A DNA stretch of 26,412 nucleotides, from positions 1 through 26,412 of IMG/VR virus record IMGVR_UViG_3300025133_000523; one strand, 5' to 3'. This stretch comes from a virus. The notes beneath the pieces are model-generated. The model did no database searches, was not told the DNA's origin, and saw only the letters and a program-made list of their open reading frames with translations. The position numbers and the translations under genes are program-made. Shown in pieces: positions 14,131 to 25,956 of this stretch. The first letter of the stretch is position 1; every line of letters starts with the position of its first letter.

Positions 14131-14919
14131 TTAGTCGTCTTCCCAATCTTTTTTAGATTGTTCTAACGCAGGTTTGCTACCTTTACTCTGTCCACTCAAT
14201 TGGTCCATTCCGCCCTTGGCAACGAATTTAGAAAACTCTTCAGCTTCACTGAAAAGATCTTTTTCGTCTTCCTTGAGCATCCGCTCCTGTGTAATACTGT
14301 AGCTATACCATGTACCACGATCATTGGACTCGACTTGGGTGTTCAAACGATACCAGTGAGAGTATGCAGGAGGAGTAAACATCCCCTTGACACCCTTTAG
14401 TTTCGTTCCTTGGATCATTGTGTTCCAAGCACGAGAGTGTTTTAGTTGCGATCCTGTCATATTGATAACACACTTTTGGGGTGCCTCATCAACGAGCGCG
14501 TAGCCATAATGGTTGGCTGTCACTGTCAGTTGGGTTTCCCCTCCTGGAGTGATTAGTCTTCCTTGGCCATCGCGTTGGCACCGATTCAAAAGATCAGAGT
14601 CTGCGGGATGCACAGCTTTTATGCCTCCACCTTTCTCACGCAACCCCCACTCAACTAGAGTTTTGGTGTAGTAAGCTGGTAGAAACAGGAGACCTTCATC
14701 GCCATTAAAGATGACGTTGGTTCCACTGTAATACAAATCGCCTTCTTCCGCGTCTGGATTATAGTCACTAGACGTTTTTTGTCTCTGTGGAGACAATGCC
14801 TGGACTATACTCAAACGTGGTGTGCGAAGGTCTTCTGTGCCCACATCTCCGAAACCTTTTTCTTCGATGTTTTCAAATAGGGATGTTATAGATTTCCCAT
14901 TACCTTTTTTCGTTGCCAT
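14131..14919 (-). CDS. Putative single-stranded DNA-binding protein (262 aa)
   Basis: This belongs to a phage replication-module family I recognise by its pattern: LRTPRLSIVQALSPQ near 31-45, then EEGDLY, a GDEGLLFLPAYY strand, and LVEWGLREKGGG near 88-99. The body looks beta-rich. The C terminus is a spacer ending in DWEDD, the short acidic tail seen in SSB and T7 gp2.5-like proteins that recruits replication partners. Position directly upstream of the primase, helicase and polymerase fits. AGAGGAAAG precedes ATG 14919. The binding activity is inferred from tail and context; the family is otherwise often annotated as hypothetical. Confidence 0.55.
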   Translation of the reverse strand: MATKKGNGKSITSLFENIEEKGFGDVGTEDLRTPRLSIVQALSPQRQKTSSDYNPDAEEGDLYYSGTNVIFNGDEGLLFLPAYYTKTLVEWGLREKGGGIKAVHPADSDLLNRCQRDGQGRLITPGGETQLTVTANHYGYALVDEAPQKCVINMTGSQLKHSRAWNTMIQGTKLKGVKGMFTPPAYSHWYRLNTQVESNDRGTWYSYSITQERMLKEDEKDLFSEAEEFSKFVAKGGMDQLSGQSKGSKPALEQSKKDWEDD

Positions 14920-14939
14920 ATTCTTTCCTCTTTATTCGT

Positions 14940-15509
14940 TCAACGGTTTATTTTTGTGCGTTTGCCTGTGTACACAGAGAATTTCTTCTGTATGTCCACA
15001 TCAAACGATGAATTACCCGACTCGATCATTTCTCTTACAAATGCTCGAAGGGTGCTTGGATGAACAGCTTGTTTCGTTTCCGGCAAGTAGCCTTGTTTCG
15101 CAAGCAGTTCTACCAATCTCGAAGCGTCCGCATCTTCGCCTTGACCAAAAGAAACGGTTAGGGTGTTCTTTATAATGTCCCCGTGTCCGTTATCTCTTAA
15201 CCAATCGTGCGCTGCCTCCAGGTTGGCGGCAGTAATGCGTGCACTATAAAATGGATCCGCTGAAATTCGTGAGCCGTCGCTAAGTTTTAGATCAGCAACG
15301 CCGAGTTCAGCTAATTTATCTGGAATAGTTTGTTCAGAAAGTTCTTTATGCTGAGATTTAACTTTTCTCAGCCGCTCTTCTGTGTTTCCTATTTCTCCCT
15401 CTAGGACCAGTAGGTCGTGACACAACTTACTTAGACTTTTTATAGCAGATTCGTCCATGTCCTCAACTGCTTTTTTGATGTTTTCTTCAAACATTTCGTT
15501 TATCTTCAT
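14940..15509 (-). CDS. Conserved phage protein with N-terminal coiled coil (189 aa), function unknown
   Basis: Residues 1-60 are helical, and about 30-58 look like a coiled coil (LVLEGEIGNTEERLRK and on). The second half has a run I have seen in phage replication regions: LGVADLKLSDG, AAHDWLRDNGHGDIIKN, SFGQGE, LLAKQGY, VHPSTLRAFVREMIE. The pattern is that of a conserved family near phage SSB/primase genes, without a firmly known function. AAGGGG lies upstream of ATG 15509, which overlaps the previous gene by ATGA. It is likely co-transcribed with the SSB-like gene and may act with it. Confidence 0.6.
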   Translation of the reverse strand: MKINEMFEENIKKAVEDMDESAIKSLSKLCHDLLVLEGEIGNTEERLRKVKSQHKELSEQTIPDKLAELGVADLKLSDGSRISADPFYSARITAANLEAAHDWLRDNGHGDIIKNTLTVSFGQGEDADASRLVELLAKQGYLPETKQAVHPSTLRAFVREMIESGNSSFDVDIQKKFSVYTGKRTKINR

Positions 15510-22805: not shown

Positions 22806-23092
22806 TAGTTTTGCTCCTGTTTCTAAGTAAAAATAGTCTATTTCTAAGGGTAAAGTGGCTGTTTCTCCACCGCACCTCAAAAATTTGTATAAGTTATGTG
22901 AAAGTTATGTGAAAACAGGGGTATGGTATAGCTGAAACCCTTTAAAATCAAGGGGTCTTGTTTTCCTATATAGAGAATATTCACATCCCCTGAACCTGAG
23001 ATTCTGTGATTTTACAAAAGGCTAATACGCAAAATTTTTCAAAAACAGAGGTGCGGAGGTGCGTTTGGGACGAAACCCTTTGTTTATAGGGG

Positions 23093-23145
23093 TTTTCACA
23101 TAACCTGACAGAGGTGCGTTACAGGTTATGTAGGTTATGTGAAAA
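23093..23145. promoter_or_regulatory. Alternative-pairing inverted repeat upstream of terS
   Basis: TTTTCACATAACCT at 23093-23106 is a perfect inverse of 23132-23145 (14 bp). The overlapping ACATAACCTG at 23098-23107 is a perfect inverse of 23122-23131 (10 bp). The two pairings compete for one arm, as in an attenuator or a multi-site protein target. Confidence 0.5.
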
Positions 23146-23150
23146 AAGGC

Positions 23151-23180
23151 TTTACTAAAACTTACTGTAGAGGATATAAT
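23151..23180 (+). promoter_or_regulatory. Candidate terS promoter
   Basis: TTTACT 23151-23156, an 18-bp spacer and a perfect TATAAT at 23175-23180. RNA would begin about at ATG 23187, implying a leaderless or near-leaderless message for the terminase small subunit. Confidence 0.45.
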
Positions 23181-23186
23181 TCAATT

Positions 23187-23687
23187 ATGCCAAAAGGAAA
23201 ATCAGGAAACATATCAGGCCGCAATGAGAAACATTTGACGCCAAAACAAATACGTTTTGCGAAAGAGTTTGTTTATAACGACGGCTCAAAAACCCAAACC
23301 GAGTGTGCTATTTCTGCTGGGTACGGTAAATCGAGCGCTCATGTTCGAGCTTCAGAGCTGTTAAACCCACAAAAATACCCGCTTGTTGTTCGCTATGTAA
23401 GAGAGCTCCAGGGGGAGGTGGATAAAAAATATGAAGTCACTTTTGGCAGACACGTTAAAAAGCTTGCAGATATAAGAGACATGTCTATCGAAAAAGGAAA
23501 TTTAACAGCAGCTGTTTCAGCCGAGGTTCAAAGAGGTAGAGCAGCTGGTCTTTATGTGGAAAGAAAAGAAATTCGTACCGGCAGCCTGGATTCGTTAAGT
23601 GAAATCGAGATTAAACAGAGAATACAAAAGTTGTTAGGAGACTATAAACCTTTGCTAGAGGCAGAAGAGGCGCAGTTTACCGAATAG
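23187..23687 (+). CDS. terS: Terminase small subunit, Terminase_2-like (166 aa)
   Basis: This is the DNA-recognition subunit of the packaging motor. LTPKQIRFAKEFV at 17-29 followed by a helix-turn-helix-like stretch (TQTECAISAGYGKSSAHVRA, about 36-55) and LLNPQKYPLVVRYV is the usual Terminase_2 pattern. A helical oligomerisation region and an acidic C terminus follow. I start at ATG 23187 (MPKGKSGN); the frame is open to a GTG at 23139, but that part overlaps the promoter and inverted repeat. No strong ribosome binding site precedes 23187. The large subunit is not in the window, so terS is detached from it. The 3' end overlaps the convergent gene by 11 bp, and seven T follow its stop. Confidence 0.8.
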   Translation: MPKGKSGNISGRNEKHLTPKQIRFAKEFVYNDGSKTQTECAISAGYGKSSAHVRASELLNPQKYPLVVRYVRELQGEVDKKYEVTFGRHVKKLADIRDMSIEKGNLTAAVSAEVQRGRAAGLYVERKEIRTGSLDSLSEIEIKQRIQKLLGDYKPLLEAEEAQFTE

Positions 23688-25092: not shown

Positions 25093-25294
25093 TTTGATCT
25101 TTCCTAAAAATAGCCTGTGCTCTACTGATGAGTAGGTCGTTTACATTGGGGTCGGGACTTGGGTTGAGGTTTTCCCAGTTTTTAGGTTCCCCTGTTTCTT
25201 CGTCCATTTCAAAAGAGACGTTGCCCCTGCCCCAACCAAGATAAACCAGATGTTTTCCGTCCGTTCTCCATTTAACTTTTGCACCGTTACTCAT
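25082..25294 (-). CDS. Small unknown protein (70 aa)
   Basis: GAGG lies seven bases before ATG 25294, which overlaps the clamp-like gene by ATGA. The first half is strand-like (AKVKWRTDGKHLVYLGWGRG, VSFEMDEETGEP); the second half is polar with a short helix (VNDLLISRAQAIFRK). The coupling to the clamp-like gene suggests matched expression. No family is recognised. Confidence 0.55.
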   Translation of the reverse strand: MSNGAKVKWRTDGKHLVYLGWGRGNVSFEMDEETGEPKNWENLNPSPDPNVNDLLISRAQAIFRKDQNAG

Positions 25295-25956
25295 TGGGCC
25301 ACCTCTTCCAACTCAACGGTTTCTGGTTTAACAAGCTCATTAATTTTAAACTCTCCAACAACTCTTGTAGGCATAATAATCACAATACCGTGTTCCGATT
25401 GCCAGATGTTAGAGCCTTCGCTACTGCCAGCAACAAGCGTCACAATAGGGAATTTTTTGTTCTCCCCTTTAAGTATGAAGTCTTTAAGCTTAGCTAAGTA
25501 TCGTGTGTTAAAACCAGTTGGTGTGTTTAGATTAAGATTAGAGTCGATTACACGCTGCCAATCTGGGTAGTGTCCGTTTTGGACATATACTCTATCAGTC
25601 ACAGTTTCTTCATCAACGGTTCTGACTATGTGTACCTGATTTTCAGAGTCATCTAGGTTTAACAAGTCAACTCTTTCTGAATCCGTTTTTTTCATTTGTG
25701 TGAAAACAGGAAGCAGTTTTTTTGAGTTGGGTTGATAGACGTCCAAAATAACCTCTTCAAACCCTTCTTCAGGCAACGCTTCTTTATCTTCATAAACACA
25801 AAGATAATGTCCGTTGGTGGCAACAACGTAGACACCACCAGCAGGTCTTTTTTCAATGTAGACACTATTTAAATAGAATCGTACATCTCCTTTTGCGGCG
25901 AAAGCACAGGCACGGCCCAGCATTTCTCCATTTAAATTATCAATATTATATTTCAT
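25291..25956 (-). CDS. Reduced DnaN-like sliding-clamp protein (221 aa)
   Basis: The N-terminal half follows domain II of bacterial beta clamp: GDVRFYLNSVYIE, then VYVVATNGHYLCVYE, matching the E. coli pattern DVRYYLNG...VATDGHRLAV. Next come NGHYPDWQRVI (E. coli GRFPDYRRV), FNTRYLAKLKDF (FNVSYVLDVLNAL) and GIVIIMPTRV, which matches the E. coli C terminus AYVVMPMRL. It lacks domain I and what looks like the first half of domain III, and it has an 18-residue tail after the MPTRV strand. It could be a processivity clamp for the phage PolA or a modifier of the host clamp. AAGGGAG precedes ATG 25956, behind a strong promoter; it is the first gene of its operon. Confidence 0.75.
   Translation of the reverse strand: MKYNIDNLNGEMLGRACAFAAKGDVRFYLNSVYIEKRPAGGVYVVATNGHYLCVYEDKEALPEEGFEEVILDVYQPNSKKLLPVFTQMKKTDSERVDLLNLDDSENQVHIVRTVDEETVTDRVYVQNGHYPDWQRVIDSNLNLNTPTGFNTRYLAKLKDFILKGENKKFPIVTLVAGSSEGSNIWQSEHGIVIIMPTRVVGEFKINELVKPETVELEEVAQ

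Follow-up and report, generated by a model that had tools for sequence, protein, structure and literature searches.

A half-site array beside terS as a candidate packaging initiation site in marine phages

How small terminases (TerS) of the SPP1/SF6 class find viral DNA is unsettled. In SPP1, TerS binds pacL and pacR, the two elements of the pac site on either side of pacC, and the site overlaps the PL1/PL2 promoters as well as gene 1 (PMC6316719, in part); a reference title listed in the same article reports that SPP1 TerS represses its own synthesis. The DNA-binding domain of SF6 TerS reportedly bound pac in vitro with little sequence specificity (PMC4737164, in part). In phage lambda, specificity is set by the recognition helix, and cosB combines three TerS sites with one for IHF (PMC4669245, in part). 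PaP3 TerS reportedly binds DNA in a sequence-specific manner through N-terminal helix-turn-helix motifs (HTHs), a cos site of approximately 20 bp having been proposed (PMC7672466, in part). As for the phages described here, literature searches on small terminases, SPP1 pac, pelagiphages and TerS covariation, from which subscription papers were mostly absent, found no title on their packaging sites, and the accessible parts of the HTVC023P-type genome paper (PMC9599517) and of the HTVC027P transcriptome paper (PMC12753301) describe none.

The DNA analyzed here, referred to as the window, is a 26,412-base phage contig from an IMG/VR virus record. Region 22806-23186 lies between a leftward small ORF and the rightward terS gene, and its bounds fit a leftward ORF that begins with ATG, from 22805, together with a terS start at 23187. 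Inspection by eye of the window's ORF list agrees with the initial annotation, which had described the region as the sole gene-free stretch above 300 bp. We propose, with a probability of roughly 0.8 and on sequence evidence, that this region would be a phage packaging initiation site read by TerS, similar to SPP1 pac but with a layout resembling that of lambda cosB.

A family of half-sites in two clusters ahead of terS

The repeats had initially been described as at least four copies of GTTATGTGAAA in both orientations, four copies of GAGGTGCG and two copies of a GAAACCCTTT...AGGGG hairpin. The counts are borne out. There are four exact copies of GTTATGTGAAA, all within the region (22893+, 22904+, 23094- and 23134+), and six in the window when one mismatch is allowed (0.71 expected), a number that no shuffle reached. 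Exact copies of GAGGTGCG lie at 22871-, 23048+, 23056+ and 23111+, with none elsewhere in the window (0.33 expected). In a 400-bp scan, the region has the top repeat score of the window, with 37 pairs versus 13 for the next non-overlapping window; on these copy counts and the scan, chance repeats were rejected. The two hairpin copies are also present, at 22934-22955 and 23072-23092 (0.00 expected), but their pairing is not conserved: the sequence of the arms is kept, yet by eye one arm alters without the other in relatives such as L014, L022 and L008. A structured RNA or conserved hairpin was thus set aside because the arms vary independently in relatives (by eye), and a known RNA family because Rfam gave no match at gathering scores.

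From the sequence, a single half-site family describes the repeats better, namely AAGTTATGT / AGGTTATGT / AGGTGCG, with nine members of a 7-9 bp family placed within 22869-23140. Both 9-mers (AAGTTATGT and AGGTTATGT) are absent from the rest of the window, and AGGTGCG occurs once more, at 626. With one mismatch allowed, 9 of the 32 matches in the window fall inside the array, where approximately 0.3 would be expected, and the remainder of the window is at background. The half-sites form two clusters, at 22869-22910 and 23049-23140, and the features of the locus are as follows.

22869..22877, minus strand: half-site AGGTGCGGT of the left cluster; CCGCACCT is retained in most aligned relatives
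22891..22899, plus strand: half-site AAGTTATGT
22902..22910, plus strand: half-site AAGTTATGT, 11 bp past the preceding half-site
22934..22974, plus strand: left conserved block GAAACCCTTTAAAATCAAGGGGTCTTGTTTTCCTATATAGA, from the alignment of relatives; its 17-mer is linked to terS
22983..23000, minus strand: possible degenerate half-sites facing leftward, by eye, with at least 2 mismatches (weaker evidence)
23001..23047, no strand: A+T-rich centre with GGCTAATACG
23049..23065, plus strand: two half-sites, AGGTGCGGA and AGGTGCGTT, 8 bp apart
23079..23099, plus strand: right conserved block TTTGTTTATAGGGGTTTTCAC (in other lineages, the TATAAGGGTTT element)
23098..23120, no strand: dyad of half-sites AGGTTATGT (minus) and AGGTGCGTT (plus), 5 bp apart
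23123..23140, plus strand: two tandem half-sites AGGTTATGT
23151..23180, plus strand: promoter-like TTTACT-18-TATAAT leading into terS, the best plus-strand promoter match
23187..23687, plus strand: terS, Terminase_2 small terminase subunit of 166 aa, from family and structure searches
23337-23360, plus strand: TerS recognition helix, residues 51-58, from the predicted model
23340-23342, plus strand: TerS residue 52

Two repeat clusters around a centre are also the arrangement of SPP1 pac; the array of the window lies just before the terS promoter, and SPP1 pac overlaps PL1/PL2 (PMC6316719, in part). Several putative TerS sites in both orientations recall the cosB sites of lambda, 21 and N15, although the half-sites here are more numerous and shorter than those of lambda, and the array of about 270 bp contrasts with the site of approximately 20 bp proposed as cos for PaP3 (PMC7672466, in part).

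TerS belongs to the Terminase_2 family (Pfam E 2.4e-9), and among solved structures it is closest to domains of the SF6 small terminase (E ~4e-6 in a PDB profile search). An AlphaFold2 model of TerS has a mean pLDDT of 71, with 84-91 in the HTH, whose helices span residues 37-44 and 51-58; Foldseek aligned TerS with 4zc3 at a TMt of 0.86 and a probability of 1.00, though with an E value of 0.1. The locus shares its TerS family and DNA-binding fold with the SPP1/SF6 pac systems (pacL-pacC-pacR; TerS gp1/G1P), unlike lambda, whose TerS is a winged-helix dimer of another class; no family or structure of the winged-helix gpNu1 type was found among the TerS matches from Pfam, the PDB profile search and Foldseek.

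The -10-like hexamer ends 6 nt ahead of the terS ATG in the window and 5-7 nt ahead of it in 56 of 79 loci, and the terS mRNA is, judging from this spacing, probably leaderless. The last half-site ends 10 bp ahead of the -35-like box of terS. TTCACA elements had been likened to -35 boxes for the leftward gene, a suggestion that did not hold, since none of the three minus-strand promoter matches uses TTCACA.

Protein family scans covered 18 proteins of the window, which is an incomplete genome. Elsewhere in the window, the protein encoded at 25294-25956 (minus strand) matches PHROG 3007, named RusA-like resolvase, with an E value of 7e-27; it also has weak matches to sliding-clamp families, and the name of PHROG 3007 may be wrong. 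Two proteins encoded at 14134-15509 (minus strand) match Pam3 gp33/gp34-like families of unknown function, and long relatives keep proteins similar to this pair in size and place.

Conservation of the array and its association with terS

When the segment 21601-24600 was compared with a collection of annotated phages, there was no nucleotide similarity to any record. The annotated phages with TerS matches are Pelagibacter phage HTVC027P (51%), phage DSL-LC04 (40%) and phage 023Pt_psg01 (31%), all with genomes of 57-62 kb. TerS was also used to search viral contigs, and the regions flanking the best 80 loci of each search, in overlapping sets, were compared. An 84,189-base contig (G005, IMGVR_UViG_3300030372_000386) has two genes resembling terS, with 81% and 35% identity to that of the window, possibly by chimeric assembly or from two phages, and ten contigs filed in cellular genomes (L412-L421; SAR86, Flavobacterium and others) carry TerS relatives of 29-53% identity and may be phage contigs binned with hosts.

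Across the lineage of the window, the spacing and the blocks of the array are kept to within a few bases. The left 17-mer TTGTTTTCCTATATAGA was found in 47 contigs and adjoins terS in 42 of them, a count that includes two contigs (L102 and L109) that carry terS beyond the fetched slice. The other five (L084, L085, L088, L105 and L113) have no terS in the slice and are apparently chance matches in unrelated sequence. The distance from the 17-mer to terS, measured in 40 cases, is 226-229 bp in 33, 309 bp in six and 987 bp in one. In another lineage, the right element of flavour F2 (see below) adjoins terS in 38 of 38 contigs; among these 42 and 38 array contigs, none has the array without terS. 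In long contigs of these lineages, the half-sites are mostly concentrated at one locus each.

The distance to terS is not fixed. In L032 the left element lies 987 bp upstream of terS rather than at ~228 bp, and in L046 a small ORF is placed between the array and terS (by eye). Genes or small ORFs separate a similar region from terS in L032, L046, L059 and DSL-LC04 (by eye, DSL-LC04 being less certain). HTVC023P has several ACTAGGAAA repeats ahead of terS (by eye), and HTVC027P and 023Pt_psg01 carry a similar array, with different half-sites, 3' of terS (by eye); that of HTVC027P (L114) lies at 14.74-14.95 kb of its record. For the HTVC027P-type loci, the 3' array was picked once the search had been restricted to the 3' flank; the densest repeats within 2.5 kb of terS in 80 loci are upstream in 59, where they are mostly of a CAAGC type, and 3' in 21. 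Since genes intervene in some relatives and the array is 3' of terS in HTVC027P-type phages, it is not tied to the terS promoter.

These observations bear on the possibility that the region is an operator array only, through which TerS or another regulator would repress terS and the divergent small gene with no role in packaging. The last half-site of the window, 10 bp from the -35-like box of terS, and the self-repression of SPP1 TerS given in a reference title of PMC6316719 (in part) would fit such a role, but arrays away from the terS promoter (987 bp in L032, a small ORF between in L046, 3' in HTVC027P-type phages) indicate that it is insufficient by itself, and nine sites, with IHF sites in relatives, appear heavy for a single promoter. 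We thus consider a purely regulatory array very improbable; a regulatory function may coexist with packaging.

The upstream CAAGC-type repeats of the HTVC027P-type loci (L192-L271) are dense in many loci at ~0.6-2.4 kb from terS, separate from the half-site array. A 15-bp sequence, TGTTTCACGTGAAAC, which closely matches the canonical bacterial parS site, is present in 16 of these 80 loci, a short way upstream of terS; in HTVC027P it is placed between annotated genes (L114, 16413-16427).

Several related lineages also carry sites for IHF, whose strict consensus is WATCAANNNNTTR. In 24 representative 600-bp upstream regions (14.4 kb) there are 19 strict consensus sites, versus 6 in 109 kb elsewhere in the same loci, an enrichment of ~24-fold (resampled mean 1.5, maximum 7). 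At least one strict site is present in 11 of the 24 regions, and six of the 24 have two sites 56 bp apart, with a dyad between them where read by eye. The window has no strict IHF site; there, and in its closest relatives, the left block contains just AATCAA (22946-22951 in the window), near the position of the full consensus sites of other lineages. An IHF site in related lineages is a further likeness to cosB of lambda, 21 and N15, the absence of a strict site from the window being a difference from lambda. Compared to pac of SPP1 and SF6, the differences include the IHF sites of relatives and the placement of the array, which in some phages has genes between it and terS and in others is on the 3' side of terS.

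Half-site flavour and the TerS recognition region

Between lineages the half-sites alter in concert, and in step with the recognition region of TerS. Four array flavours were distinguished (F1, GTTATG/GTGCG; F2, GTTAGA/GTGAGG; F3, ACTGAG; F4, TTAGATG), in addition to T1 (GTGTTACAA), T2 (GTGTCTCAA) and rarer ones in HTVC027P-type phages. In the tabulated rows, TerS residue 52 is H, K or R with F1 and A or S with F2, and it is the only one of 72 variable columns that separates F1 from F2 (49 unique rows, 21 versus 28). T1 and T2, compared over 116 variable columns (38 versus 11 rows), are separated by residue 62 (K/Q versus S/T) and by one column of the poorly aligned C-terminal tail. Random relabelling, which ignores relatedness, gave 0 separating columns in 300 trials for each comparison. 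The covariation is post hoc, because the flavour classes were defined from the array strings after inspection, and T1/T2 is a second set that was not pre-registered.

Trees were employed to follow the coupled change. When TerS with the HTH left out was used to build a tree of 74 rows (209 loci before merging), rows with R52 and F1 nested inside the A/S F2 group, with support of 84/76. A helicase tree, which comprises 24 rows, places both R/F1 and K/F1 together with rows of the A/F2 kind (SH-aLRT 90 and 80, neither starred). The nesting and the helicase grouping suggest that the coupled change arose more than once. The TerS tree joins K/F1 to H/F1, and the helicase tree joins it to A/F2, a conflict that makes recombination likely and complicates the count of changes; the number of independent pairs on the tree is only 1-2, which makes for a weak formal statistic. 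Co-change with flavour was analyzed in 117 rows, obtained by merging the HTVC027P-type loci with the 74 TerS-tree rows and collapsing duplicates, after 13 of the 76 tabulated loci had been omitted (12 with a best count below 3, plus L267). Its value is 0.33 in residues 44-62 versus 0.24 outside residues 36-66, a weak difference, and columns 144 and 87, outside the HTH, co-change as often as residue 62. In SVK rows the residue class changes without a change in flavour class, and H52 is found with both F1 and F4.

Two contigs from one sample (3300028925), L081 and L165, are 85-100% identical per 100 columns from ~2.8 kb to 230 bp upstream of terS, and only 42-74% across the promoter and the initial three quarters of the terS gene; the right dyad differs in its two half-sites at once. 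In this pair, most of terS appears to have been exchanged along with its promoter, through natural recombination with a junction at the array.

Half-sites that evolve in concert with residues of the TerS recognition region imply that the sequence is read, which would set these phages apart from SF6, whose DNA-binding domain was reported as nearly non-specific (PMC4737164, in part). The situation is similar to that of PaP3, in which a small terminase reportedly reads DNA specifically through N-terminal HTHs (PMC7672466, in part), a property suggested here by covariation, and to that of lambda, 21 and N15, in which the recognition helix and matching sites set specificity (PMC4669245, in part), the corresponding elements being putative here. 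A role for TerS as reader of the half-sites is well supported but not statistically closed. Whether there is a TerS-DNA recognition code in the SPP1/SF6 class, in which changes of a few residues go with rewriting of the half-sites to give specificity groups, and terS is exchanged with part of the array as a cassette, we regard as evenly balanced; residues 52 and 62 would belong to such a code, with 53 and 57 as further candidates.

Replication, genome ends and packaging

The initial annotation had offered a packaging site, an origin or an operator array, and of these packaging is supported by the linkage to terS and the covariation with TerS. As a replication origin, the region would have an initiator bind iterons, IHF bend the DNA and the A+T-rich centre open, and iteron-like half-sites on either side of that centre, with IHF sites in relatives, conform to this layout, beyond which no positive evidence was found. 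The half-sites follow TerS residues, which makes an origin less likely. No initiator was found among the 18 proteins scanned in this incomplete genome, and DnaA-type boxes (TTWTNCACA) are not enriched, with three in the window, one of them at 23138-23146, versus 3.17 expected. A GC-skew switch, anticipated for an origin, was not detected either: across six genomes or long contigs, strand-specific third-position skew does not step at the array, which is a weak test, and GC skew was uninformative as to an origin. Taken together, we hold an origin to be improbable.

Within the packaging reading, the array could correspond to cosB, with fixed cohesive ends cut beside it. Repeated TerS sites and IHF resemble lambda cosB (PMC4669245, in part), and the position beside terS fits. 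Genome ends were surveyed, with contig ends as a poor proxy for virion ends, in 36 contigs that share the TerS family of the window and have their upstream end at most 1.5 kb from terS; L063, L130 and L171 were omitted because their slices do not reach the end of the contig. The density of ends is higher close to the array, since the 200 bp preceding the TATAAGGGTTT element hold 12 versus 3-5 per 200 bp further upstream (5, 4, 5 and 3 in successive upstream bins), but these 12 are at differing places, as assembly breaks or imprecise cuts would also give. The contig ends are scattered, with no common terminus, and show no fixed genome end at the array; in contrast to lambda, no fixed cohesive ends were detected among them. 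The 59.1-kb contig G013 overlaps itself over 150 bp at 95%, inside terS and not at the array, and a check of self-closure in G004 gave just a 118-bp match away from the end. Within the packaging reading, we consider cohesive ends at the array unlikely.

For a TerS-read packaging initiation site, the following course of events can be envisaged. Several TerS HTH domains would read the short half-sites in the two clusters, which flank the conserved CCTATATA and TATAGGGG elements and the A+T-rich centre, and folding of the DNA would be aided, in other lineages, by one or two sites of the IHF type. Once assembled on the DNA, TerS would recruit TerL, leading to a nearby cut from which packaging would start. 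In the lineage of the window, TerS may also repress its own promoter. The sequences show the repeats, the association of these with terS, their joint change with the recognition region of TerS and the excess of IHF sites in relatives; what we infer is that TerS binds, that the DNA is cut and where, and that packaging is of the headful (pac) and not the cohesive-end (cos) type.

With many natural TerS/site pairs, including some close genomes that differ in both, this group of marine phages would render the question of how SPP1/SF6-class small terminases find viral DNA directly testable. The array also provides a signature by which packaging sites could be recognized in metagenomic phage sequences, and a site that changes together with the DNA-reading helix of TerS suggests how packaging specificity evolves. 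If true, the recognition code would revise the view that SF6-class TerS rings choose DNA mainly by shape.
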